Assembly (NCBI RefSeq): GCF_036227605.1
Contig: NZ_CP109487.1
Span: forward strand, 4,104,001 to 4,168,000
DNA: 64,000 nucleotides
Source of the DNA: Streptomyces sp. NBC_01439
Lineage (GTDB): Bacteria; Actinomycetota; Actinomycetes; Streptomycetales; Streptomycetaceae
Reading direction: 5' to 3'
Within the stretch, counting starts at the first letter, position 1; every line of letters starts with the position of its first letter. Below, piece by piece: positions 53,844-64,000 of the stretch. Made by a program: the position numbers and the translations under genes. The notes beneath the pieces were generated by a model, which saw only the letters and a list, made by a program, of their open reading frames with translations, did no database searches and was not told where the DNA came from.

Positions 53844-54215
53844 TTACTTCTCCTTCTTGGCGCCGTAGCGGCTGCGGGCCTGCTTGCGGTTCTTGACAGC
53901 CTGGGTGTCAAGCGCACCGCGGATGATCTTGTAACGAACACCCGGCAGGTCCTTCACACGGCCACCACGCACGAGCACGATCGAGTGCTCCTGCAGGTTG
54001 TGTCCCTCACCCGGAATGTAAGCGGTGACCTCGATGCCGGAGGTCAGACGCACACGCGCGACCTTACGGAGCGCCGAGTTCGGCTTCTTCGGGGTGGTCG
54101 TGAACACACGCGTGCAGACGCCGCGACGCTGGGGCGAAGCCTCAAGCGCGGGGGTCTTTGTCTTCTCGACCTTGTCCTGCCGGCCCTTACGGACCAGCTG
54201 CTGGATCGTAGGCAC
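53844..54215 (-). CDS. rpsL: 30S ribosomal protein S12
   Basis: The S12 protein has 123 residues from GTG 54215 ([20 protein letters not shown]). The '[16 protein letters not shown]' and '[12 protein letters not shown]' segments carry the wild-type Lys residues at the positions where streptomycin-resistance changes occur. It heads the str operon. Confidence 0.98.
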
Positions 54216-54266
54216 TACTTCTCCGGTTTCTGTGTGCCGTGTAGTGAAACTAACCTGGAACGTTTG

Positions 54267-54291
54267 CCGACCCACGCGGTCGGGTGTGTCG
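54267..54291 (-). promoter_or_regulatory. Leader hairpin element shared with the S10 operon
   Basis: This is the same 25-nt element as at 41004-41028 (24 of 25 identical), containing CCGACC-GCGTG-GGTCGG in RNA sense. It lies 52 nt before the rpsL start. Confidence 0.7.
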
Positions 54292-54346
54292 GATCCGGCG
54301 GACCTCCGCGCAAGCACGGAAACGCATGGATCGCGGTGGCCGACTC

Positions 54347-54381
54347 GGCTCACGTGCGGTTGATGGACACGCACGTGAGCC
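54347..54381 (-). other. 12-bp-stem hairpin in the rpsL leader
   Basis: GGCTCACGTGCG (54347-54358) and CGCACGTGAGCC (54370-54381) are perfect complements with an 11-nt loop. It starts about 20 nt after the predicted transcription start. Confidence 0.7.
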
Positions 54382-54407
54382 TAGGCACACCCCAGGCACA
54401 AGGTCAG

Positions 54408-54436
54408 AGCGTACCTACCTCACAGAGGTAGGTCAA
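54408..54436 (-). promoter_or_regulatory. str operon promoter with palindromic spacer
   Basis: Minus-strand TTGACC (54431-54436) and TACGCT (54408-54413) are 17 bp apart. A perfect dyad ACCTACCTC-TGT-GAGGTAGGT (54413-54433) fills the spacer and touches both hexamers, suggesting a protein-binding site within the promoter. Transcription would start near 54400, giving a leader of about 185 nt. Confidence 0.7.
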
Positions 54437-54520
54437 AACAAATGCCCAGCACGAAAACACACCGGGCGCAAGTGGTGGCGGCGACCGGGGCCGCCGCCGG
54501 TCGAGTGCGGGAAGGCCGGA

Positions 54521-54982
54521 TCAGTCCTGCACCCGGCGGCGCGGCTCCGCGACGGCCGACGGCTCGGCGGGAACCTCGCCCGGGGCCGCGTCGGGCTCCA
54601 GAAACTGACTGACGACCTTGACGAAGACCTCGCGGCGGCCCTCGGGGACACCCAGCCACCGGGCGAAGTCCTCGATGGTGGGCGTACGGCCGCCGGGCGG
54701 CAGCTCCTGCGCGGCCAGCGGGAGCTCCTCGGGGGCGACCCGGCCGGAGCGGATCAGCATGTCGCGCACGGAGACACCGAGGAGCGGGGCGATCCGGCGC
54801 ATGGTCTCCAGGTCGGGCATGCTCTGGCGCTGGAGCAGGCGCGTGACGGCGGCACGGTGCACCCCGGCCTCGTCCGCGATCCTCGACTTGCCGCCGCCTC
54901 GCGGGCTGTCGATGTCGTATCCACGCTGCCGCATCAGGGTTTCCACCCAGGCCGCGAACGCGTCAAGTTCCAGAGTGCCCAT
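54521..54982 (-). CDS. XRE-family (Cro/CI-like) transcriptional regulator of the tail island
   Basis: This 153-residue protein starts at ATG 54982 with GAGGAG upstream. An N-terminal helix-turn-helix domain (about 20-75) shows 'GGKSRIADEAGVHRAAVTRL' and 'MPDLETMRRIAPLLGVSVRD'; a second helical region ('TPTIEDFARWLGVPEGRREV') may dimerise. It faces the WhiB-like gene across a 206-bp intergenic region holding two similar 18-bp sites, the classic arrangement of an autoregulated phage repressor. The weak GC hairpin at 54477-54495 may end its transcript. Confidence 0.82.
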   Translation of the reverse strand: MGTLELDAFAAWVETLMRQRGYDIDSPRGGGKSRIADEAGVHRAAVTRLLQRQSMPDLETMRRIAPLLGVSVRDMLIRSGRVAPEELPLAAQELPPGGRTPTIEDFARWLGVPEGRREVFVKVVSQFLEPDAAPGEVPAEPSAVAEPRRRVQD

Positions 54983-55032
54983 GTGCCGCTCCTCAGTCCG
55001 CCGTTCGCAATCCGCACCATGACAGCACATCT

Positions 55033-55050
55033 TAGCGTGCTTGCGCGCAC
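55033..55050 (-). promoter_or_regulatory. Diverged operator copy before the XRE gene
   Basis: Read on the minus strand, GTGCGCGCAAGCACGCTA matches the 18-bp operator at 55113-55130 at 14 of 18 positions, in inverted orientation. It lies 51 bp upstream of the XRE start, so it may mediate autorepression. Confidence 0.55.
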
Positions 55051-55112
55051 GGAATTATGACCTCCATAAATAAAGCACAACCTAAGTCAAGGGCAAGTAA
55101 TGAGGTTCTTGA

Positions 55113-55141
55113 TTGCGCGCTCGCACGCAACATGCCACAGT
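55113..55141 (+). promoter_or_regulatory. Promoter/operator of the regulatory unit
   Basis: TTGCGCGCTCGCACGCAA is an imperfect dyad. TTGCGC (55113-55118) and CACAGT (55136-55141) are 17 bp apart and can serve as -35 and -10. The 29-bp block recurs at 56537-56565 with three differences. Confidence 0.7.
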
Positions 55142-55188
55142 GAGGCGGCCTTGAGCCACGGTCGTCCCAGCCTCGCGGAGTCGTCACC

Positions 55189-55479
55189 ATGCCCCTTGCC
55201 CCGCCCCCAGCCCCACCCGCCGCCGCGCGCACCGCCGTCCCCTGGCCCTGGCAGGCCTCCGCCGCGTGCGCCGACCTCCCGCCCACCGTCGTCTTCGCCC
55301 GCCGGATCAAGGACGCGGCCCCGGCCCTGCGCGCCTGCGCCGCCTGCCCGGTCCGGCACCAGTGCGAACAAGCCGTCGCGCCGGCCGAGAGCTGGTTCGA
55401 CGGAGTGTGCGCCGGCCGGCTGTGGCGCAACGGCCGCCCCGCCGCCCTCACCTCGCCCACCGGGAGCTCCCGTGCCTGA
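55189..55479 (+). CDS. WhiB-like protein (Wbl), phage-type
   Basis: This 96-residue protein starts at ATG 55189. Four Cys in Wbl spacing, Cys27, Cys50, Cys53 and Cys59 (C-X2-C-X5-C), should bind a [4Fe-4S] cluster. After them comes 'WFDGVCAGRLWRNGRPAAL'; the usual G(V/I)WGG turn reads GVCAG, with Cys in place of Trp, followed by a basic tail that could touch DNA. Wbl proteins regulate transcription with the primary sigma factor. It is the first gene after the island's promoter/operator and overlaps the next gene by eight bases. Confidence 0.8.
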   Translation: MPLAPPPAPPAAARTAVPWPWQASAACADLPPTVVFARRIKDAAPALRACAACPVRHQCEQAVAPAESWFDGVCAGRLWRNGRPAALTSPTGSSRA

Positions 55480-56182
55480 CCTCCGTACCGGCGACACCGC
55501 GCTGTGGATCGCCTCGCTGATCCGCAACTTCCCCGAGCTCTGCGAAGAGCTGGCGCCCGGGCGCGCCGCCGCCTTCTCCGCGCACGTCCCGGCCCCGCGC
55601 GGCCCGCGTGACGACGAGCTCGTCCGCGTGGAGCGGCGCGAGGCCCTGCTCCTGCAGCAGGAGCACGGCCTGACCGCCTCCGGCCACAGCGCCGCCCCGA
55701 TCCGGCTGCACGTCTCCGACACCATCCGGGACGTCACCGACGGGGTGGTCGAGCTGGAGGAGGCCGTGTGCGCCCGGCTCGGCATCCCCCGCCCCCGGCG
55801 CGCTCCGGTCCCGGAGCGGCTGCGCCGGCTCGCCGCCATGCTGGACGGCATCGGGGCCCACCCGGTGCTCGCCCGCCACGTGCGCGACGAGCTGCGCCGG
55901 ATGGCCCGCCGCTGCGCCCGCGTACTCGGCGACACCGAGCAGGTCGTACGGGTCTCCGGGCGCTGCCCGTGGTGCGACTCCGTCTCGCTGCGCGCGTTCC
56001 CCGACCGGCGGGCGGTGCTGTGCGTGAACCCGGCCTGCCGCTGCACGGTCGGGGACTGCGGCTGCCACGACGATCCCGCCTACCGCCACCTGTGGCCCGA
56101 GACGGAGTGGGCCACGCTGGCCGCCGAGTCGGGCTGCCGCACCGAGGAACTCGACTCCGCGATGGAAGGAACCCAGCAGTGA
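55472..56182 (+). CDS. Zinc-ribbon protein of unknown function
   Basis: This 236-residue protein starts at GTG 55472 (MPDLRTGDTALWIASLIRNF), overlapping the Wbl stop by eight bases. The first 150 residues are helical and charged. The C-terminal part has a likely zinc ribbon, 'GRCPWCDSVSLRAFPD' then 'VLCVNPACRCTVGDCGC' (about 165-205), with extra Cys and His residues. I recall similar proteins in actinophage and tail-cluster contexts, but no function is known. It is coupled to the next gene by GTGA. Confidence 0.7.
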   Translation: MPDLRTGDTALWIASLIRNFPELCEELAPGRAAAFSAHVPAPRGPRDDELVRVERREALLLQQEHGLTASGHSAAPIRLHVSDTIRDVTDGVVELEEAVCARLGIPRPRRAPVPERLRRLAAMLDGIGAHPVLARHVRDELRRMARRCARVLGDTEQVVRVSGRCPWCDSVSLRAFPDRRAVLCVNPACRCTVGDCGCHDDPAYRHLWPETEWATLAAESGCRTEELDSAMEGTQQ

Positions 56183-56376
56183 TCGCTCCGCTCCCCTCCC
56201 TGATCCCCGGCCCGGTGGCCGCCCATGAGGCGGGGGTCGCCCCCGCCACGATCCGCAAGTGGGTCCAGCTCGGCCGGCTCACGGCGGCGGGGAAGGCGGG
56301 CCGGGCGCAGCTGTTCCGCCTGGAGGACGTGTTCGCCGCGGAACGGGCCGCCAGCCGCCGCGCGGCCCCGGCCTGA
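56179..56376 (+). CDS. Small HTH (MerR/excisionase-like) protein
   Basis: This 65-residue protein starts at GTG 56179. It contains 'GPVAAHEAGVAPATIRKWVQ' and 'RAQLFRLEDVFAAERAASRR', a helix-turn-helix followed by the short wing and helix of AlpA/Xis or MerR-like DNA-binding domains. It is the last gene of the regulatory unit and may control tail-gene transcription. There is no integrase nearby that would make it a true excisionase. Confidence 0.75.
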   Translation: MIAPLPSLIPGPVAAHEAGVAPATIRKWVQLGRLTAAGKAGRAQLFRLEDVFAAERAASRRAAPA

Positions 56377-56403
56377 CCCCCGTACCGCTCGCCCGAACGC
56401 ACC

Positions 56404-56436
56404 GATGCCCGGTCTCCCCCGTGGAGGCCGGGCATC
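56404..56436 (+). terminator. Terminator of the regulatory unit
   Basis: GATGCCCGG and CCGGGCATC flank an inner CTCC/GGAG stem, 28 bp after the HTH gene. The 322-bp gap 56377-56698 otherwise holds the tail promoter and another hairpin. Confidence 0.7.
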
Positions 56437-56536
56437 CGGCGTTTCGCGAGAAGCGTGCGGAGTCCGCGGGAAGCGGGCCGGACGGCCGCGGGAGACGGCC
56501 CGGACGCGGCCTTGGTGAACTGCCCGCACGAATTTG

Positions 56537-56565
56537 TTGCGCGCGCGCACGCAACGTGTCACAGT
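56537..56565 (+). promoter_or_regulatory. Promoter/operator of the tail gene unit
   Basis: TTGCGCGCGCGCACGCAA (56537-56554) plus CACAGT (56560-56565) repeat the block at 55113-55141 at 26 of 29 positions, including the 17-bp spacing. The same regulator probably controls both units. Confidence 0.7.
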
Positions 56566-56620
56566 TGGTGCAGCGGCAGAGCTGCGCCCGCAGGACGGGC
56601 GGCGGCCGGCCGCTCCCCCC

Positions 56621-56665
56621 GCCGGGCGGTGCCCGCCCCTCGCCCCCCTTCGGGCACCGCCCGGC
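56621..56665 (+). terminator. 15-bp-stem hairpin in the leader of the tail unit
   Basis: GCCGGGCGGTGCCCG (56621-56635) and CGGGCACCGCCCGGC (56651-56665) are perfect complements. It sits between the promoter and the first tail gene, as an attenuator or antitermination target would. Confidence 0.6.
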
Positions 56666-56698
56666 ATCCCCGCCACCCACCAGCTGAGGTGATCCGTC

Positions 56699-57106
56699 GT
56701 GACCACTCCCCCGAGTGCCTTCCCCGACGTCGAGGCCCTAGTCGTCGACGTCCTCAAGGCCGATTCCGCCCTGTCCGCGGCCGCCGTCGCCGTCGACCCG
56801 CCCGCCGGGTTCGACGGCACGCAGCGGGCCGTCCTGGTCAACCGCCGCGGCGGCGCCTGGACCGGCGACCTGCACGTCGACCGTCCGCTGATCGAGCTGG
56901 AGGTGTACGGCCCGACCAAGGCCGCCGCCCACACCCTGGCCAACGCCGCGCGGCGGGCCCTGCTCGCCACGCTCGGCAAGACCATCGGCTCGAACGCCTT
57001 CACCGATGTCGAGGAGCAGGACGGTCCTCGCTGGCTGCCCGACTACCTGTACCGCGGCGCGAACCGCTACGTCTGCGTGATCCAGGTGTCCCTCAGCGTC
57101 TTCTGA
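56699..57106 (+). CDS. Tail terminator-like protein
   Basis: This 135-residue protein starts at GTG 56699 after GAGGTG. It begins 'MTTPPSAFPDVEALVVDVLK' and has 'WTGDLHVDRPLIELEVYGPT', 'AAHTLANAARRALLATLG' and a C-terminal 'YRGANRYVCVIQVSLSVF' strand pair. Size, sequence pattern and its place just before the tube gene fit siphovirus tail terminator/completion proteins (gpU-like fold). The head-completion genes that normally precede it are absent. Confidence 0.72.
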   Translation: MTTPPSAFPDVEALVVDVLKADSALSAAAVAVDPPAGFDGTQRAVLVNRRGGAWTGDLHVDRPLIELEVYGPTKAAAHTLANAARRALLATLGKTIGSNAFTDVEEQDGPRWLPDYLYRGANRYVCVIQVSLSVF

Positions 57107-57120
57107 CGCTCCCACAGACC

Positions 57121-57147
57121 AAGGCCCCGCCGCCCGGTGGGGCCTTT
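57121..57147 (+). terminator. Hairpin between tail terminator and tube genes
   Basis: AAGGCCCC and GGGGCCTT around a 10-nt loop, followed by TTG. It may help set different levels of the two products. Confidence 0.7.
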
Positions 57148-57215
57148 GCCGTACCCGGACGCGGACACATCCGCGCTCCGGACCGGCAGACCTCTATACA
57201 AGGAGAAGCATCACC

Positions 57216-57818
57216 ATGGCAGGAAACTCGTCCGAGATCCGCGTTGCCGGCAGCGGCCGCATCTTCGTCGCCGCCGCCGGTACGGCCCTTCCGACCGCCT
57301 TCACCGGCAAGCCGGACACCGACTGGGGCGCCAACTGGAAGGACCTCGGCTTCTCCACGGCCGACGGCGTCACCTTCTCCAAGAAGGACAAGCTCGAGCC
57401 CATCGACTCGTGGCAGGCCGTCAGCCCGGTCCACTTCACCTACTCCGACCGGGACCTGTCCCTGAAGTTCTCGCTGCTCCAGTTCAACGAGCTGACGCTG
57501 CCGTTCTTCATGGGCGGCGGCGCGGTGGCCGACGAGGCCACCCCGTCCAACGGCATCTACCGCTACGACATCGCGGACTCGCCGAAGTCGGACGCCCGTG
57601 CGCTGGGCCTGGAGTTCACCGACACCAAGGCCAGTGACGGCTCGGTCGTAACCTACCGCTTCTACATCCCGCGCGGCCAGGTCACCGCCTCCGACGACAT
57701 CAAGCTGGCCCGCAAGGCGGCCTCCACGCTCGGCATCACCTTCACCGCGCTGGCCGCGGGCGACGACAAGCCGCTGGCGAGCTTCGTCATGAAGGACGGC
57801 GCGTACGCCGCCGGCTGA
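57216..57818 (+). CDS. Major tail (tube) protein
   Basis: This 200-residue protein starts at ATG 57216 with AGGAG upstream. It begins 'MAGNSSEIRVAGSGRIFVAA' and has 'PDTDWGANWKDLGFSTADGV', 'AVSPVHFTYSDRDLSLKFSL' and 'GSVVTYRFYIPRGQVTASDD', typical of siphovirus tube proteins that polymerise as hexameric rings. Hairpins stand on both sides, consistent with an abundant product. Its place between terminator and chaperone genes supports the call. Confidence 0.85.
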   Translation: MAGNSSEIRVAGSGRIFVAAAGTALPTAFTGKPDTDWGANWKDLGFSTADGVTFSKKDKLEPIDSWQAVSPVHFTYSDRDLSLKFSLLQFNELTLPFFMGGGAVADEATPSNGIYRYDIADSPKSDARALGLEFTDTKASDGSVVTYRFYIPRGQVTASDDIKLARKAASTLGITFTALAAGDDKPLASFVMKDGAYAAG

Positions 57819-57831
57819 TCCGGCCCCTGAC

Positions 57832-57863
57832 GGGGCGGGGCTGCCTCCGGGCCGCCCCGCCCC
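57832..57863 (+). terminator. Hairpin after the tube gene
   Basis: GGGGCGGGGC (57832-57841) and GCCCCGCCCC (57854-57863) are perfect complements, 14 bp past the tube stop. Confidence 0.7.
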
Positions 57864-57910
57864 ACCCCCACCTCTTCCGATCCACCTTCACCCAGAGGAG
57901 ACCCATCACC

Positions 57911-58201
57911 ATGGCAGGCTTCGACGTCAACGCGGCCCGCGCCCAGCGCCAGGAAGCCCTCGGCCGTTCCTGGTCCTTCCAGCTGGACGACGAGACGTAC
58001 ACCCTCCCCACCGAGCTCAGCCGGGCAGCGGCCAAGGGGCTGCGCAAGCTCGACGACAACGACGTGGACGGTCTGCTGCGCGTCCTCTTGGGTGACAAGC
58101 AGTTCGAGCGCTTCGAGCAGCACGACATCACGATGCAGGACGTCGCCGCGATCCTCGAGGCCTACGGCAAGGAGACCGGGCTCGGCCTGGGGGAAGGCTG
58201 A
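57911..58201 (+). CDS. Tail assembly chaperone, G part
   Basis: This 96-residue protein starts at ATG 57911 (MAGFDVNAARAQRQEALGRS). It has 'SFQLDDETYTLPTELSRAAA' and 'LRVLLGDKQFERFEQHDITM', the pattern of siphovirus G-type chaperones that coat the tape-measure protein. Its end carries a GGGGGAA slippery run two codons before the stop, and the -1 frame continues open for 143 codons. This is the standard G/GT arrangement. Confidence 0.85.
   Translation: MAGFDVNAARAQRQEALGRSWSFQLDDETYTLPTELSRAAAKGLRKLDDNDVDGLLRVLLGDKQFERFEQHDITMQDVAAILEAYGKETGLGLGEG
58189..58195 (+). other. Putative -1 programmed frameshift site
   Basis: In the G frame the codons are CTG GGG GAA GGC TGA. GGGGGAA lets the P-site Gly codon re-pair perfectly in the -1 frame, which then avoids the TGA and continues AGG CTG AGC. 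The direction (-1) matches lambda-type G/GT. No strong downstream pseudoknot was resolved by eye. Confidence 0.75.
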
Positions 58202-58626
58202 GCCTCGTCGAGTTCGTCGACGAACACGCCGAGGCCCTCGAAGCGGACCTGCTCCGCTATTACGGCAAGGACCTCCTTGACTGGCACCGCGGGGAGCTCT
58301 CCTCGCGGCGCCTGATGGTCCTGATCAAGCACCTGCCGCAGGACAGCGCCGTCAACCGGGACCTGTTCGGCGAGGCCGCCGACTGGTCGGTGACCGACCA
58401 CCTGCTGGCGGCCACCGTGGACCACCTGGCGGCCGGCAACTGGATGTTCGCCTGCGTCAACACGGCGGAGGACGACGATCCGCCGGAGGCACCGAAGCCG
58501 GTGCCGAGGCCGGACGGCAAGCCGAGGAGTTCCGAGTCGGATGCGGAGTCCGACCCGGACCCGGACACGGACGCGGCCCAGGCCGAAGCCGTCTCCCCGG
58601 ACAAGCTCGTCCGCTTCTTCGGCTGA
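58195..58626 (+). CDS. Tail assembly chaperone, T extension made by -1 frameshift
   Basis: After the shift the frame encodes 143 residues beginning RLSLVEFVDEHAEALEADLL, with 'YYGKDLLDWHRGELSSRRLM' and an acidic Pro/Asp/Glu-rich tail ending 'SPDKLVRFFG'. The first in-frame ATG is only at 58315, inside the conserved part, so independent initiation is unlikely. The G-T fusion would have about 238 residues. T extensions recruit the tube protein during assembly. Confidence 0.8.
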   Translation, partial: RLSLVEFVDEHAEALEADLLRYYGKDLLDWHRGELSSRRLMVLIKHLPQDSAVNRDLFGEAADWSVTDHLLAATVDHLAAGNWMFACVNTAEDDDPPEAPKPVPRPDGKPRSSESDAESDPDPDTDAAQAEAVSPDKLVRFFG

Positions 58627-58635
58627 CCGTACGGG

Positions 58636-59469
58636 TCAGTCACCCTGCTCGGGGGGCTCGGGCCTGCCCGGGCCGGCCCGGGTCTCCAGGTCCTGAGCCA
58701 GGGCCCGGGCCCGGTCGGCCAGAGTCAGCCGGTCCGGGCCCCCGTCCGCCCCCGGCCCGTCCGCCGGGAGGTCGGCCGGGGTGCCCTGCGGGCGCGGCTG
58801 TACGGGTACGGATTCCAGTGGCGGCACGATGGGGCGCCCGTTGCGCCGTACGACCTTCCGGCCGACCGGCGTCGCGCGCTTCTCGCGCGCGTCGCCTCGC
58901 GCGCGCGTCGCGCGGGCGGCGCCCGGCGCCGCGGGAGCGGTCATGACCGGCTCCCGGGGCGTTTCGCCGTCCTTGTGACGGCGCGGCGGCGGGATGGGTC
59001 CCGGATCCGGCTCGGCGGCCGGTGGGGGGCCGGTGTCGGAACGCCGGTCCAGGATCTCCTGGGCCCGGCGCATCCGCTCCTCGGTCTCCACCATCAGGGG
59101 CGAGGGTTCGAGCAGCGTGGCGAACGGCAGCCGGATCACGGTGGCCCCCCGGCCGTCGCCGGGAGTGCGCCGGGCGGCCGCATCGCCTCCGCGTCCGCCA
59201 CCCGCGGCGTACGCCTCTGCGACCCGTTTCTCGTACTCGCGGCGGATCCGAGGCAGTTCCTCGGACATCGCCTCGGCCCATCCGGCGGTGAAGGCGGCCG
59301 TCTCCCGGCGGTCGATCTCCGCCCTCGGTATCACGACGAGATCCTCGGGTGCGAAGCCCGCCGCATGTACAAGTTCTGACAGCCGCGCAAACAAATGGGG
59401 CAGGTCAGGGACCATTTCAAGCCAGTCGATGGCATGGTCACGCCTTCTGGCGCCCGCTTCCCTGTCCAT
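58636..59469 (-). CDS. Antisense-oriented hypothetical protein within the tail block
   Basis: This 277-residue frame starts at ATG 59469. The first 90 residues look ordered ('WLEMVPDLPHLFARLSELVH', 'PRAEIDRRETAAFTAGWAEA'), and the rest is Pro/Arg/Ala-rich and probably disordered. The RET-A-TAGW segment is shared with the 64-residue protein at 59773. It runs against the surrounding tail genes and ends 10 bp from the T frame. It may be a regulator or moron-type gene; no function is assigned. Confidence 0.6.
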   Translation of the reverse strand: MDREAGARRRDHAIDWLEMVPDLPHLFARLSELVHAAGFAPEDLVVIPRAEIDRRETAAFTAGWAEAMSEELPRIRREYEKRVAEAYAAGGGRGGDAAARRTPGDGRGATVIRLPFATLLEPSPLMVETEERMRRAQEILDRRSDTGPPPAAEPDPGPIPPPRRHKDGETPREPVMTAPAAPGAARATRARGDAREKRATPVGRKVVRRNGRPIVPPLESVPVQPRPQGTPADLPADGPGADGGPDRLTLADRARALAQDLETRAGPGRPEPPEQGD

Positions 59470-59661
59470 GCGTCAGCACTGCCTTCCCGCCCCCAGGCTC
59501 CCCTCGCGCCCCGCGTGACACGCGCGTTCCTGGGCGGGGAACAGTGATCAAGCGTACCCGGTCGTCCTGAAACTCCCTGTTCTTGGTACACGCATCCCGA
59601 GTAACGGACCTCACGCCGGACCCCGTGACGCGCCGAGGGGGCTTTCCAGCTCGACAAACAT

Positions 59662-59675
59662 CGAACGAATGTTCT
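59662..59675 (+). promoter_or_regulatory. LexA (SOS) box-like site
   Basis: CGAACGAATGTTCT contains the GAAC-N4-GTTC core of the actinobacterial/Gram-positive LexA box. It lies between TCGACA (59651-59656) and CTTAAC (59674-59679), a possible -35/-10 pair 17 bp apart, and upstream of both the 64-residue gene (+) and the 277-residue gene (-). The 303-bp gap 59470-59772 has no other supported gene. Confidence 0.6.
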
Positions 59676-59772
59676 TAACTCTGTTCGCACACACATTCGA
59701 CAACCGGTGCCCCCGCTCCCGACCCGCGGCGCCACCACGCAGCAAGGGCAAGCAACTGGAAGGCAGGCGTCC

Positions 59773-59967
59773 ATGACCCAGCAGGCCGAGGGATCACCGC
59801 AGCTCGCGCTCCACGACCGCCTCAGCCAGCTTTTGGACGGACCCGCCCCCCTCGACAAGAGGGCCCTGCTCGGCTCCCTGCACGCCGAGATCACCAGCCG
59901 CGAGACCCGCGCGTACACGGCCGGCTGGAACGACGCCCTCTCCGAGTCGCGGCGCCCCGCGCAGTAG
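59773..59967 (+). CDS. Small protein with TAGW motif
   Basis: This 64-residue protein starts at ATG 59773 with GGAAGGCAGG upstream. It is helical ('HDRLSQLLDGPAPLDKRALL') and ends with 'HAEITSRETRAYTAGWNDAL', matching 'RAEIDRRETAAFTAGWAEAM' in the antisense protein at 58636-59469. It is the nearest gene downstream of the LexA-like box and is followed by its own terminator. The function is unknown. Confidence 0.7.
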   Translation: MTQQAEGSPQLALHDRLSQLLDGPAPLDKRALLGSLHAEITSRETRAYTAGWNDALSESRRPAQ

Positions 59968-59991
59968 CCCCGCAGCCCTTTGTCCGACCGA

Positions 59992-60025
59992 GCCCTCGCC
60001 GATGTTCGACCGGCGGGGGCTTCTT
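59992..60025 (+). terminator. Terminator after the 64-residue gene
   Basis: GCCCTCGCCG (59992-60001) and CGGCGGGGGC (60011-60020) pair at 9 of 10 positions with one T-G wobble, followed by TTCTT. Confidence 0.75.
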
Positions 60026-60062
60026 GGCGCTTGGCCCGACCGGCCGGAAGCGGAGGAACACC

Positions 60063-61046
60063 ATGGCAATCGAAGACCCGCAGCCTTCACGGGTGATATC
60101 CGAAGAAAAACCGCCGGACCCCCCGAAGGGCGAGAAACCGCTCACCGCCTCCCAACTGCTCGAGTGGTACACCTCGCACCCTCCGGAGCTCGTCGCGCAG
60201 CTGGGCGCGGCGAACTTCGTCACGAACGTCAGCCTGGCTGCGCTCCTGGAGCCCATCGCCAAGGACATCAAGGACATCCATCACGAGGTCGTCAACCCCC
60301 TGGCGGTCGAGCTGCTGCAGCAACTGCGGCTCGAGTCCGCCGCCGCCGCACTCAAGAAGAGCCCCATCTTCGAGAACCACGAGCAGTGGTGGGCGTACGC
60401 CGTCACGGCCGCCGCCGGAATCCTCGTCACCATCCTCGCCGCCCGCTTCGTCAGCAAGCTCCCGGCCCGGCTCACCGGCGCGCCGCCAGGCGCCGCCGCG
60501 GACCTGACCCCGGAGCGGGTGGAGGCGCTGCGCAGGGAGCTCACCGACACGAACCCGCTGCTGCAGACCTACGCCGACCAGGTGCGGCGACTCCCCCAGG
60601 CGAAGGAGATGACCGCCCGGGCGACGGCCATCGGCAAGCTCAAGAATGCCGTGGCCAACCAGAACAACACCGAGGTCACGGCGGCCGCCGATGCGATCAA
60701 GAGCCTCAAGACCGCCCTCAGGAACTTCGACCCCAAGAAGCTCCCGACGAACCACTCGGCGCTGAAGAAGACCGCCGACGCCCTCGACAAGCTGAGGGGG
60801 GCGATCGAGCGGCTGAAGGTCGATGACGTGAGGAACGCGACCCAGGCCTTCCTCCGCCTCAAGATCGTCCTCCGGAACCTCAAGCCCTCCGACATCCCCA
60901 AGTCGGGCGACATGAGGGCCAGCGCCCGGGCCGCCAGCAGCCTCGAGGGCGCCACCCGCAGACTGACCGGCGCCCTCCAGCCCCTGGCTCCCGCGCTGCG
61001 GGGTGTCATCTCGTCGGCCCAGACCACCGCCGGCGCCCTCGGCTGA
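60063..61046 (+). CDS. Hypothetical coiled-coil protein with one membrane helix, upstream of tape measure
   Basis: The protein has 327 residues from ATG 60063 (GGAGGAAC upstream). An approximately 115-residue N-terminal part ('LTASQLLEWYTSHPPELVAQ') is followed by a hydrophobic helix ('WWAYAVTAAAGILVTILAAR', about 117-136). A long Lys/Ala/Leu-rich helical region with heptad-like repeats ('IGKLKNAVANQ', 'IKSLKTALRN', 'LDKLRGAIERLK') makes up the rest. Position and composition suggest a tape-measure-related or tail-interior protein; this is inference. Confidence 0.65.
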   Translation: MAIEDPQPSRVISEEKPPDPPKGEKPLTASQLLEWYTSHPPELVAQLGAANFVTNVSLAALLEPIAKDIKDIHHEVVNPLAVELLQQLRLESAAAALKKSPIFENHEQWWAYAVTAAAGILVTILAARFVSKLPARLTGAPPGAAADLTPERVEALRRELTDTNPLLQTYADQVRRLPQAKEMTARATAIGKLKNAVANQNNTEVTAAADAIKSLKTALRNFDPKKLPTNHSALKKTADALDKLRGAIERLKVDDVRNATQAFLRLKIVLRNLKPSDIPKSGDMRASARAASSLEGATRRLTGALQPLAPALRGVISSAQTTAGALG

Positions 61047-61083
61047 TCCGCAGCCCTCACCACACAAAGGAGGTGTGACCACC

Positions 61084-62283
61084 ATGACTCTCGCCAGTTC
61101 CACGAAGCGCGCCTCGGACGCTCTGCGCAACCTCAAGACGCAGGCTTCCGGCGCCGCGGCCCCCGTCAAGCGGGTCGGCGACGCCGGCAACCGTGCTTCG
61201 GGCCAGCTCAGAACGCTCCGTACGAACGCCCAGGGCTCCACCGGCCAGCTCAAGAGCCTCAAGACCGCCGCCGACCAGGCCGAACGGGCGATGTCCAAGG
61301 CCGGCCAGACCGGTCAGCGGGCCGGCACGCAGCTCGGCCGGTTCAAGACCGGCGCCGACCGGGCCGCCTCGGGCCAGGACAAGCTCAACAAGTCCATGAG
61401 GGGCAACTTCCTCGCCCGCCTGATCGAACTGTTCATGCCGCTCATCGAGAAGATCGTCGAAATGGCGATGCGCTCGAAGACGATGCAGACCGTGATCCGG
61501 ACCGCTTTCAACGCCATCCGGACCGTGATCTCCACGGTCATCAAGGCCATCGGCCCGATCATCCGCGGCGCCGGCAACCTGATCAAGTCGGTGTGGAACA
61601 GCGTCAAGAGCGCCGTCCTGCCGATCGTCTCGGCCATCGGCAACGCCGTGAAGTCCGCCTTCAACGGCATCAAGTCGGTCATCACCAGTGTGATGAACGG
61701 CGTCCGCTCGGTCATCAGCAGCGTGTGGAACGGCATCAAGGCCGTCATCATGCCGGTGGTCGACTGGATCAAGTCGGCCGTCCCGAACGCCTTCAACGCC
61801 GTCAAGGACCGGATGTCCAGCGCCTGGAGCGGGCTCAAGGGCATCGCTTCCGGCGCGTTCGGCGCCATCGTCGGCGCGGTCAAGTCCCCCATCAACTCCG
61901 TCATCAGCCTGATCAACTCCATGATCAGCCGGATCAACCGGATCCGCGTCAGCGTCCCCGGCTGGGTCCCCTTCGTCGGCGGCAAGAGCTTCGGCGTCAG
62001 CCTGCCCACCATCCCCATGCTCGCCACCGGCGGTGTGGTCATGCCGCGCAGCGGCGGTGTCCCGGCGATCCTCGCCGAGGCGGGCGAGGCCGAAGCCGTG
62101 CTGCCGCTGTCGAAGCTCGACCGCCTGCTCGCCCGTACGGCCGCCCGCGCCCGGATGACCTCCGCCGCCCCGGGCTCCGGTGAGGGCTCCGCCCTGCACA
62201 TCGAGCACTACTACGCCGCGCAGAACACCGACCCGCAGCGCACGGCCGACGCGCTGATGTACCTGGCGAAGGCGCGCGGATGA
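61084..62283 (+). CDS. Tape measure-like protein 1
   Basis: The protein has 399 residues from ATG 61084 with a near-consensus AAAGGAGGTG. Residues 1-100 are a basic coiled coil. About 115-290 contain amphipathic, membrane-active-looking repeats with Trp-Asn/Ser spacing ('SVWNSVKSAVLPIVSAIGNA', 'SVWNGIKAVIMPVVDWIKSA'). The end has 'LPTIPMLATGGVVMPRSGGV' and 'AILAEAGEAEAVLPLSKLDR', a very common tape-measure C-terminus. It is short for a tape measure; its stop overlaps the next gene (ATGA). Confidence 0.82.
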   Translation: MTLASSTKRASDALRNLKTQASGAAAPVKRVGDAGNRASGQLRTLRTNAQGSTGQLKSLKTAADQAERAMSKAGQTGQRAGTQLGRFKTGADRAASGQDKLNKSMRGNFLARLIELFMPLIEKIVEMAMRSKTMQTVIRTAFNAIRTVISTVIKAIGPIIRGAGNLIKSVWNSVKSAVLPIVSAIGNAVKSAFNGIKSVITSVMNGVRSVISSVWNGIKAVIMPVVDWIKSAVPNAFNAVKDRMSSAWSGLKGIASGAFGAIVGAVKSPINSVISLINSMISRINRIRVSVPGWVPFVGGKSFGVSLPTIPMLATGGVVMPRSGGVPAILAEAGEAEAVLPLSKLDRLLARTAARARMTSAAPGSGEGSALHIEHYYAAQNTDPQRTADALMYLAKARG

Positions 62284-63563
62284 GTGCGGCCGTCGTCGCG
62301 GTGAACCCCTTCGGCGGCCTCACGAGGTCCATGGGCCGTGTCCGTACCCAGGTCGGGGCGGCCACCGGGAACGCCCGCCAGGTCGCCTCGTCGCTGAAGC
62401 AGGTCGGCTCCGCGGTCAAGAAGGCCGCCTCCGACACGGCACGGCTCGCGCCGGCGGCCGCCCAGGCCGGCAAGGTGCTGGCCGGGCTGAAGACCCAGGC
62501 CGCTGCAGCCGCCACGTCCGCGGCCAAGCTCGGCCAGTCCGCGACCCGGGCGGCCACCGGCACCAAGCGGGTGGATTCCGGGGCCCGCGGGGTCGTGGCC
62601 TCGCTGCGGAAACTGGCCGCGAAGACCGGTGGCGTCCTGGCCGTCATCGGCGGCCTGCTGCCGGCCATCGGGATCGTCTCCACGCTCATGAGCACCTTCG
62701 GCATCGCCATGACCGTGGGCGCCGTCGTGATGACCGCGGTCAACGTGGCCATGCGGGCCAACCCGATCGGCTTCGTGCTCGGCATCCTCATCCCGCTCGG
62801 CGCCTGGCTCATCGAACTCGCCATGAACTCCGAGACCGGCCGGCGCCTGATCGAGCAGACGTTCACCGTGGTCCTCAAGGTGTTCGAGGAGTACGCGAAG
62901 TTCCTCACCCCGCTGCTCGCGACCGTCCGCACGATCGTGACCACGTACTTCAAGACGTACTTCGAGGTCATCTCGGCGGTGGTGGGCGGTCTGCGCGGAG
63001 CCGTCAACGGCTTCTCCCGGACCGGCAGTGCCGCCGGTTCGGCCAGCAACGCGCTGCGCGGCATCGCCTCCGGCACCTTCAACGCGATCATGGCCCCGAT
63101 CCGCCCGGTGATCACCTTCCTGACCGGCACCCTGCCCGGGGCGTTCTCCCGGGTGAGCTCGTCGCTGTCCGGTTCCCTCAACGGCATCGGCCGCTTCGTC
63201 ACCACCGGCCTGCAGGCCGTGCTCGCCGTGGTCACCGGCCCGTTCAACGGCATGATCGCCTTCGCCAACTGGATCATCGACGGCCTGGAGGACCTCAGCT
63301 TCGAGCTCCTCGGCAAGAAGTTCGGCGTCGACCTCGACAAGATCCCGATGCTCGCCGAAGGCGGCGTCGTCTGGCCGATGTCCATGGGCTCGGCCCCGCG
63401 GATCAACCCCGTATCCGACCTCGACCACCGTCGCGTCGCACCCGCGCCTCCGCCCTCCCCGGGCCAGGGCCCCCACCGCATACGGGAGTACCGGGAGTCC
63501 GCGGGCGCGGGCCCCCGCTCGACCGCCGAGGACCTGCTCTTCCTCGCCGCCGCCCACGCATGA
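62280..63563 (+). CDS. Tape measure-like protein 2
   Basis: The protein has 427 residues from ATG 62280, overlapping the previous stop. A Lys/Ala/Ser-rich N-terminal coil (1-105) is followed by hydrophobic segments ('GGVLAVIGGLLPAIGIVSTL', 'GFVLGILIPLGAWLIELAM') and a repeat region. 'LDKIPMLAEGGVVWPMSMG' near 356-374 mirrors the C-terminal motif of protein 1. Two coupled tape-measure-like genes in tandem are unusual; they may have arisen by duplication or by splitting of one tape measure. Confidence 0.78.
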   Translation: MSAAVVAVNPFGGLTRSMGRVRTQVGAATGNARQVASSLKQVGSAVKKAASDTARLAPAAAQAGKVLAGLKTQAAAAATSAAKLGQSATRAATGTKRVDSGARGVVASLRKLAAKTGGVLAVIGGLLPAIGIVSTLMSTFGIAMTVGAVVMTAVNVAMRANPIGFVLGILIPLGAWLIELAMNSETGRRLIEQTFTVVLKVFEEYAKFLTPLLATVRTIVTTYFKTYFEVISAVVGGLRGAVNGFSRTGSAAGSASNALRGIASGTFNAIMAPIRPVITFLTGTLPGAFSRVSSSLSGSLNGIGRFVTTGLQAVLAVVTGPFNGMIAFANWIIDGLEDLSFELLGKKFGVDLDKIPMLAEGGVVWPMSMGSAPRINPVSDLDHRRVAPAPPPSPGQGPHRIREYRESAGAGPRSTAEDLLFLAAAHA

Positions 63564-63612
63564 TCCACCGGACATCCCCGCCCCATCCCCGAGAGCGAGG
63601 TGACGGCCCGCC

Positions 63613-64000
63613 ATGGCCGAGACCATCACAGACACCTACACCGCCGACCACGCACCCGGCTCACTCATCACCCAGGACGGGCAGATGCAGTGGGCCGGAC
63701 TGCTTCTCGGGCCCGGTACCCCCTTCACCGTCGACCGGTCGGGACTGACCGGCTGGGAAGACCTGCCGGAGTACGACAGCTCCGACGCCGAACGCCCCAC
63801 CGGCCACGGCGCCTGGCCCGGCGCCCGCTACGCCAAGCCCCGCAAGATCGGCGGCACGGTGTGGATGACGCCCGCGCGGGGCGCCTCCCTGAGTACGGTC
63901 CGCATCCTGCGCCAGGCGATGGCCCTGGGCGACGCCGAACGCTGGCTGGCCGTACGGATGCACGGCGAGGTCCTCGCCGTGCGCGCCCGGATCAGCCAGC
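63613..64000 (+). CDS. Distal tail (Dit)-like protein, cut by right edge
   Basis: The frame opens at ATG 63613 after GAGGTG and stays open to the window end (129 residues). It shows 'DGQMQWAGLLLGPGTPFTVD', 'LTGWEDLPEYDSSDAERPTG', 'HGAWPGARYAKPRKIGGTVW' and 'DAERWLAVRMHGEVLAVRAR', the pattern of phage tail-tip Dit proteins of Gram-positive siphophages. Its place after the tape measure genes fits. Confidence 0.8.
   Translation, partial: MAETITDTYTADHAPGSLITQDGQMQWAGLLLGPGTPFTVDRSGLTGWEDLPEYDSSDAERPTGHGAWPGARYAKPRKIGGTVWMTPARGASLSTVRILRQAMALGDAERWLAVRMHGEVLAVRARISQ

Follow-up and report, generated by a model that had tools for sequence, protein, structure and literature searches.

The 64,000-base window analysed here (bases 4104001-4168000 of the 9.58-Mb single-contig genome of Streptomyces sp. 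NBC_01439, G000) leads at its right end into a 16.4-kb block of tail genes, which runs from 54521 to 70901 in window coordinates inside the rpsL-rpoC gap. With a probability of roughly three in four, this block encodes a domesticated tailocin of the non-contractile (F) type and belongs to a family that is fixed in Streptomycetaceae; its most likely role is that of a weapon against bacterial competitors, the particles and their killing being predicted from the genes. Judged from sequence, the cluster combines a siphovirus-type tail set and an amidase with the absence of head and packaging families, fixed chromosomal sites and shared operators, and is a maintained chromosomal locus rather than a decaying prophage. 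It is very probably an F-type tailocin-like system, and as far as literature searches show it is new for Actinomycetota: no Streptomyces F-type tailocin is on record in the titles and abstract openings listed, which covered few subscription papers and no bioRxiv preprints, and the word ‘tailocin’ is absent from the available text of PMC10023795 and PMC11302927.

A first-pass annotation of the window had described a four-gene regulatory module followed by a siphovirus tail order of terminator, tube, G/T, tape measures and distal tail protein (Dit), its gene list stopping at Dit because the window ends there. Pfam and PHROGs matches bear out the tail order, and the module does come first, comprising a repressor, a WhiB-like regulator and two further small regulatory genes. 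The CI-like repressor has rpsL (53844-54215, minus strand) as its left neighbour; on the plus strand follow WhiB, g9, g10, terminator, tube, G, T, g16, g17, tape measure proteins 1 and 2 (TMP1 and TMP2) and Dit. Past the window end, Dit is succeeded by two phrog_3398 proteins, a Tal-like protein, the tip protein g24, g25, an amidase, a holin-like protein and g28, whose end at 70901 is the end of the cluster; the yfhO gene (PF09586) and then rpoC (minus strand, beginning at 73597) lie beyond. The rightward extension thus confirms the proposed position in the rpoC-rpsL gap. It yields more tail and lysis genes before rpoC, which rules out a prophage with its head genes beyond the window. Gene limits are those of a simple purpose-made gene caller, and families were assigned with Pfam, PHROGs and NCBIfam (g10 and g16 against NCBIfam only, g28 against PHROGs only).

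The tail genes, all on the plus strand, form the non-contractile set of an F-type particle (terminator, tube, chaperones, tape measures, Dit, Tal-like protein). The terminator (56699..57106) matches phrog_123 (1.8e-20) and the tube, or major tail protein (57216..57818), matches PF25681 Phage_TTP_17 (3.3e-59) and phrog_117 (8.3e-38). Tail assembly chaperone G (57911..58201; phrog_10551, 1.3e-25) is followed by chaperone T (58315..58626; phrog_3656, 5.1e-16), the predicted C-terminal part of a G-T fusion, which matches the C-terminal part of the phrog_3656 profile. A GGGGGAA slip site at 58189..58195 would allow a -1 frameshift into T, the -1 frame being open from 58096; 72 of 73 loci have the motif in the slippery frame, each with a -1 frame open for at least 131 codons. 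Of 75 T genes, 15 have no recognisable start codon, consistent with production of T by frameshifting. The tape-measure region consists of three open reading frames (ORFs): g17 (60063..61046), a variable protein with one hydrophobic segment, a weak match to the tail protein phrog_2589 (0.0019) and matches in 21/82 loci; TMP1 (61084..62283; phrog_3981, 2.8e-26), which is 396-406 amino acids (aa) long in 70 of 78 intact copies; and TMP2 (62280..63563; phrog_3981, 6e-21), which has hydrophobic segments. The latter two are paralogues (25.7% identity over 389 aa, E 3e-31). Dit (63613 to 64524, the window ending at 64000) matches SPP1_Dit PF22768 (1.1e-12) and phrog_5577 (3.6e-81); sequence searches of the PDB with the tube and Dit gave no match at E 0.1. 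Of the genes for lysis and receptor binding, the amidase is clear (PF01510, 1.2e-22; phrog_880, 5.9e-75) and receptor-binding-type proteins are present, whereas the holin-like protein is assigned solely by its position and hydrophobic segment.

Head genes are missing from this set, as the first-pass annotation had noted. No family match to a capsid, portal or terminase (Pfam, PHROGs, NCBIfam) or to an integrase (Pfam, PHROGs) occurs among the island proteins scanned from rpsL to rpoC. By these scans the interval shows neither the integrase, terminase, portal and capsid that an intact prophage would unite in one element nor the own head and DNA-packaging genes of a gene transfer agent. The same scans returned no sheath (Pfam, PHROGs, NCBIfam), no AAA+ ATPase of the kind found in extracellular contractile injection systems (eCIS), and no effector domain. 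For ten island proteins NCBIfam supplied no name except a peptidoglycan-binding domain in the amidase and a far-below-cut-off match for g17, and an Rfam search of window positions 54000-64000 gave no match. Attachment repeats, which would have pointed to an ordinary prophage, are likewise not apparent: the longest exact words shared by the left edge and two candidate right edges are of 8 and 10 bases, which is random-like.

The receptor-binding-type proteins of the phrog_3398 family occur in 1-5 copies per locus (89 loci), with 54% identity in their N-terminal and 29% in their C-terminal parts, and a predicted structure is fibre-like with a lectin-like head, the lectin match coming from the VIA re-alignment. 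They would be variable receptor-binding proteins on a conserved tail. Single-linkage clustering of the C-termini gave one giant, uninformative group. More distant clusters (loci L049, L150, L151, L153, L157 and L159) encode an extra protein of ~480-535 aa between g24 and the amidase, the position of g25 in G000; the L151 copy is without a Pfam match.

The second line of evidence concerns control by the SOS response. A LexA-like SOS box, TCGAACGAATGTTCTT, lies at 59661..59676 (plus strand; 10 of 12 positions in this genome), and a second LexA-like element, TCGCACACACATTCGA, at 59685..59700 (plus strand), ahead of g16. Of 82 loci, 51 have g16 and enter the count, the other 31 lacking this gene; a box of at least 10 of 12 occurs within 260 bp upstream of g16 in 49 of the 51, compared with 25 of 1020 random windows. 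Loci L218 and L219 have a perfect LexA-like box near the regulator operator. In S. venezuelae, the available text of PMC9380542 reports 526-fold induction of vnz_21525 and 190-fold induction of vnz_21545/vnz_21550 by mitomycin C, ranking these three genes among the most induced LexA targets and describing them as ‘a predicted prophage cluster’. The available part of PMC12096830 numbers L11 as vnz_21445 and S12 as vnz_21600, which places vnz_21525-21550 between rplK and rpsL. Locus L043 in the 8.22-Mb genome G015 contains exact copies of the two SOS boxes given in the available text of PMC9380542: one separates revORF from g16, and the other lies inside the end of TMP2 upstream of Dit. One of the two is also present in L014, a piece of the same genome. 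From this we infer that G015 is S. venezuelae, and, judged by place and both SOS boxes, vnz_21525-21550 are evidently the same tail cluster. Next to the printed box, TCGAACAGATGTTCCA and TCGCACAGAGGTTCGA each fit 11 of 12 palindrome positions, versus 9 of 12 for the printed site; both are conserved in relatives and are no better under the looser consensus given in the available text of PMC9380542.

The cluster occupies a fixed place in the chromosome. Across 150 Streptomyces genomes surveyed, rpsL and rpoC share a contig and strand in 139, with a median gap of 1.2 kb; the gap is 17-25 kb in eleven genomes, ten of which, including that of the window, carry the tail cluster. The eleventh (G127) has no island homologue and carries a conjugation-type gene. 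G012, with a rearranged chromosome, is a further gap outlier, and in G116 the cluster adjoins rpoC with rpsL on a different contig. Gaps of 6-17 kb with other cargo occur in 23 further genomes (L060, L062-L083) and contain no island homologues except yfhO in L063 and L067; ten cargo-gap proteins scanned include a type IV secretion coupling protein (L060), polysaccharide genes (L062) and an M48 peptidase (L064).

Profile searches extend this picture. In named species genomes, 179 pattern matches yielded 96 relatives by a Dit profile. The best 80 were kept, and all but two of these (‘Actinobacteria bacterium OV320’ and ‘Microtetraspora glauca’) bear Streptomyces titles. Seven of these 80 are cut before the cluster end; in 67 of the 73 usable for the right flank the rpoC stop follows the last tail gene, at a median distance of 83 bp (57 loci at ≤190 bp, five at 1.7-3.6 kb). 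Within the window's family a tube profile matches 81 of 297 genomes, with scores of no less than 239 bits in 46, and it matches 7 of 296 genomes in the wider class, one of which (59 bits) lies outside the family. Seven of 20 tube-profile loci fetched sit at rpoC and/or rpsL, six of the seven in other genera, with rpoC and rpsL both seen as flanks in L206, L207 and L212, rpoC in L208 and L210, and rpsL in L209 and L224. Other fixed sites are proC (L211, L216, L220), dnaJ-dnaK (L218, L219) and a DUF3027 gene (L150, L151). For these alternative-site groups Pfam was run on one member each and the others were matched by blastp; a partial scan of unmatched inner ORFs (L151, L215, L217) returned no head gene. 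In G041 the cluster (L103) stands on its own 16-kb contig, with rpoC and rpsL 2 kb apart on another, which reflects either a different site or an assembly effect.

Conservation of the genes argues against decay. Frames are intact in every matching locus for the tube (73/73), Dit (82/82), Tal (81/81), amidase (75/75) and g28 (75/75), and the frameshifted tail genes expected of a remnant are not seen; with up to 82 loci compared, a broken core gene is rare. Broken copies affect g9 (L134), a phrog_3398 gene (L132), the holin-like gene (L112) and revORF (L144); TMP1 of L125 is flagged, revORF is short in L125 and L141, g16 is short in L144, and the remaining incomplete genes are cut by contig or locus ends. 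The integrity test registers stops within the best match and short ORFs, a measure that small in-frame damage would escape.

The supposition that the island is kept vertically also stands, with some allelic replacement. A tail tree (78 loci) and an rpoC tree (~1 kb, 67 loci, several nodes weak) agree in their main groups, and the second genus forms a single clade in both, with six tail tips and four rpoC tips; since L147 and L212 appear to be one genome, these represent five and three genomes, respectively. Several loci, L158/L161, L174/L175 and L148/L154 among them, are placed differently in the two trees, and alleles have therefore sometimes been replaced. Correlation of distances with rpoC peaks in the adjacent genes (g28 0.61, holin-like 0.59, amidase 0.56; others 0.27-0.46), the pattern that replacement by way of flanking homology would produce. 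The island has also been lost at times: the site is empty in close relatives, and deletion scars in L086 (G083) and L088 (G074) retain fragments of the repressor, a phrog_3398 gene, g28 or the holin-like gene. In G012 the island lies in three chromosome places 3-4 Mb apart (L095, L096, L040), as rpsL-repressor-WhiB, TMP1-TMP2-Dit and yfhO-part-rpoC pieces; either rearrangement breakpoints or assembly errors fall inside it.

Megablast of the part of the cluster inside the window against phage records gave no match, and the tube is 31.7% identical to the best listed phage record. Among best-covering rows, Dit is 43-45% and the amidase 55-57% identical to Streptomyces phages, and TMP1 matches phages at 24% over 86% of its length (Chymera) or at 32-38% over half to three fifths; for the amidase the best match reaches 60-80% in 59 of 823 phage records, none of them among the eight best-covering rows. 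A tube-profile search of IMG/VR returned a single contig, IMGVR_UViG_2862207470_000003 (L180). This 11.3-kb ‘viral’ contig is itself such a cluster, running from repressor to g28.

The CI/Cro-like helix-turn-helix (HTH) repressor (54521..54982, minus strand; PF01381 HTH_3, 9.6e-6; phrog_3949 transcriptional repressor, 4.9e-12) is divergent from the remaining island genes; 55 of the 82 loci have a match to it, in a set where many loci end short of the repressor gene. On the plus strand, the WhiB-like regulator (55189..55479; PF02467 Whib, 1.6e-6; phrog_472, 1e-9) precedes g9 (55472..56182), a conserved, probable regulator in which seven Cys (165, 168, 184, 189, 191, 196, 198) and His 206 are invariant among 18 aligned sequences and appear zinc-ribbon-like by eye; g9 has no Pfam or NCBIfam match, and its PHROG matches are weak (best 0.0013). 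The gene call g10 (56179..56376) is a small protein that looks HTH-like by eye, with no match in NCBIfam and a match in 56/82 loci. An 18-bp palindrome, TTGCGCGCnCGCACGCAA, occurs twice, upstream of the WhiB operon as TTGCGCGCTCGCACGCAA (55113..55130, plus strand) and upstream of the tail operon as TTGCGCGCGCGCACGCAA (56537..56554, plus strand). The first of these putative operators overlaps a TTGCGC-17-CACAGT pair that, judged by eye, is promoter-like, and the second has the same arrangement. With 0-1 mismatch the palindrome is present at only these two sites in the 9.58-Mb genome; seven further places have 2 mismatches, and window positions 1-50000 contain none at ≤3 mismatches. A third, weaker operator-like palindrome (≤3 mismatches) lies at 55033..55050 (minus strand), on the repressor side of the divergent promoter. 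Of 67 loci, 65 have an operator (≤3 mismatches) ≤350 bp upstream of the terminator gene, L152 and L180 being the exceptions; among 1340 random windows, 3 have one. Cluster members at the proC site and other sites also have the 18-bp operator. The regulator block is inverted relative to the tail operon in L109, L112, L116, L117, L125, L127, L131, L134, L136, L139, L140 and L143, and also in L151 and L153, mostly in one Streptomyces group.

Two further genes flank the SOS boxes. The antisense gene revORF (58636..59469, minus strand), between T and g16, is matched in 48/82 loci and has no family match in Pfam, PHROGs or NCBIfam. The small conserved protein g16 (59773..59967, plus strand) is the first gene past the boxes and is matched in 51/82 loci. 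The two share a domain (50% identity over 48 columns) and lie on opposite sides of the boxes.

From these parts a mechanism can be proposed. DNA damage would remove LexA, and probably the CI-like repressor too, upon which the regulator and tail promoters, with their common 18-bp operator, would fire. The tube would polymerize on the tape measures, aided by the frameshifted G/GT chaperones, and the terminator would cap the finished tube. The holin-like protein and amidase would then lyse the producing compartment, and the released tails would bind sugar receptors of related actinomycetes via their lectin-like heads and kill by opening the target membrane. The F-type reading gains from SOS control, from a lysis gene and from the variability of the lectin-like receptor-binding proteins. 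On balance we also favour a wider proposal: an ancient non-contractile tail weapon, shared across the family of the main antibiotic producers, that would provide the first examples of F-type tailocins in Actinomycetota. In many Streptomyces LexA would control it directly. Its housekeeping-gene sites (rpoC-rpsL, proC, dnaK-dnaJ) would act as homology arms through which alleles are swapped with no need of an integrase. The weapon would combine a pair of tape-measure paralogues with one to five exchangeable receptor-binding proteins, whose lectin heads set a kin-specific target range.

Several observations weigh against the tailocin reading. The SOS box of the window's genome, at 10 of 12, scores lower than those in 48 of 50 other loci, and a box of at least 11 was not found in the rpoC/rpsL-site loci of other genera (L206-L210, L212). 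In L043 the second printed box falls inside TMP2, and box-to-start distances of 184 (printed 174), 118 and 200 (printed 123 and 182) differ from the publication by 5-18 nt. Medians of dN/dS by the NG86 method are 0.31-0.62, saturated and distorted by GC bias; dN/dS was therefore dropped as proof of selection, and intact frames, slip site and operators serve as the conservation evidence. The tip protein g24 has almost no third-position excess (23.1, 17.0 and 23.6 differences per 100 codons by codon position, against 1.2, 0.8 and 6.4 in rpoC), and the correlation of tail and rpoC distances is moderate (rho 0.43, 62 loci; 0 of 999 permutations as high). The PHROG of the holin-like protein (4316) carries no function, and the top Foldseek row for the receptor-binding model is an unrelated toxin (TM 0.19). 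Finally, G015 has terminase, portal and capsid genes near 3.13 Mb, and capsid-like genes exist in G000 and G066.

Of the rival explanations, an unlikely one is that the tails stay in or near the producer as a protein-delivery or self-lysis device, delivering effectors or killing a damaged compartment. The cytoplasmic contractile system of S. coelicolor is reported to behave in this way, and the available text of PMC10066040 and PMC12237407 reports a contractile tail system that Streptomyces employs within its own cells; induction by DNA damage fits programmed death, and the island has conserved genes with no assigned role (g9, revORF, g16, g25). However, no effector domain was matched in the island proteins scanned, and the variable lectin-like heads point to the recognition of other cells. 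It is very unlikely that the island is a tail donor, whose tails join heads encoded by another prophage or a capsid-only satellite and move DNA. The terminator, head-facing in phages, is retained, and potential heads exist: G000 has a lone HK97-type capsid gene (3551174-3551905) at a distance of ~0.6 Mb, in a genome that gave no match to PF04860 (portal) or PF03354 (terminase), and G015 and G066 have capsid and portal genes elsewhere. Among ten island genomes (without G079), however, the three families searched, PF05065 (HK97 capsid), PF04860 (portal) and PF03354 (TerL), occur in three, two and one, respectively, leaving seven without this capsid, eight without this portal and nine without this TerL; other head families lay outside the search. 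A prophage remnant heading for loss is scarcely tenable: the fragments in G083, the three-part island of G012, the empty sites and dN/dS values that are not low would suit it, but core genes, slip site and operators are conserved, and strong induction is reported in S. venezuelae in the available text of PMC9380542. Equally implausible is an ordinary inducible prophage with head genes scattered or unrecognised within the island, since, despite the PHROGs label of ‘head and packaging’ for the phrog_3398 proteins and the Dit and lysin relatives in Streptomyces phages, the block is closed by rpsL on one side and yfhO-rpoC on the other, the phrog_3398 proteins are predicted to be fibre-like with a lectin-like head, and phage records offer no match to the part of the cluster inside the window and, by tube profile in IMG/VR, just the one repressor-to-g28 cluster.

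The F-type tailocin reading, also the one that the first-pass annotation had favoured, thus remains the best supported. If it is true, it would account for some of the LexA targets with the strongest induction in S. venezuelae, now filed as prophage, and this link offers a tractable model strain. Fixed sites beside essential genes would make the family a clean case of phage parts turning into host genes. Known F-type tailocins are few, and if Streptomyces has a conserved one, the best-studied antibiotic producers would gain a protein weapon.

F-pyocin of Pseudomonas aeruginosa and monocin of Listeria are headless systems that combine a non-contractile tail with lysis genes, and their production is SOS-linked. 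These two are the only F-type tailocins named besides rhizoviticin in the available text of a 2024 paper (PMC10811719), according to which rhizoviticin of Allorhizobium vitis has a non-contractile tail and lysis genes, no head genes and a link to the SOS response. The island resembles these systems in its non-contractile tail genes, its amidase and its lack of recognised head genes, and probably in SOS-linked production. The Streptomyces contractile injection system (eCIS/SLP) is also phage-tail derived and widespread in the genus (PMC8910223, available text), yet it is contractile, whereas the island has no sheath match. It is also reported to be bldA-dependent; the cluster genes have 2 TTA codons in ~330,000 (the g21 and g22 rows partly count the same ORFs), and bldA control of the island is unlikely. 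SV1/Picard-type Streptomyces siphophages and Chymera resemble the island in Dit, amidase and, for Chymera, TMP1, but are complete phages, whereas the island has no recognised head genes and the front half of its tail (tube) has only distant relatives among phage records. The S. venezuelae cluster vnz_21525-21550 is represented in the available text of PMC9380542 by three genes and the term prophage, with no mention there of the missing head, the rpoC-rpsL site or the family. The likeness to F-type tailocins is drawn from the genes, the published SOS induction being that of another strain, S. venezuelae. The island differs from them in phylum (Actinomycetota), in tail lineage (as the distance of its tube from phage records indicates), in the probable LexA boxes on its tape-measure operon, in its WhiB and zinc-ribbon-like regulators, in its two tape-measure paralogues and in its place between rpoC and rpsL.

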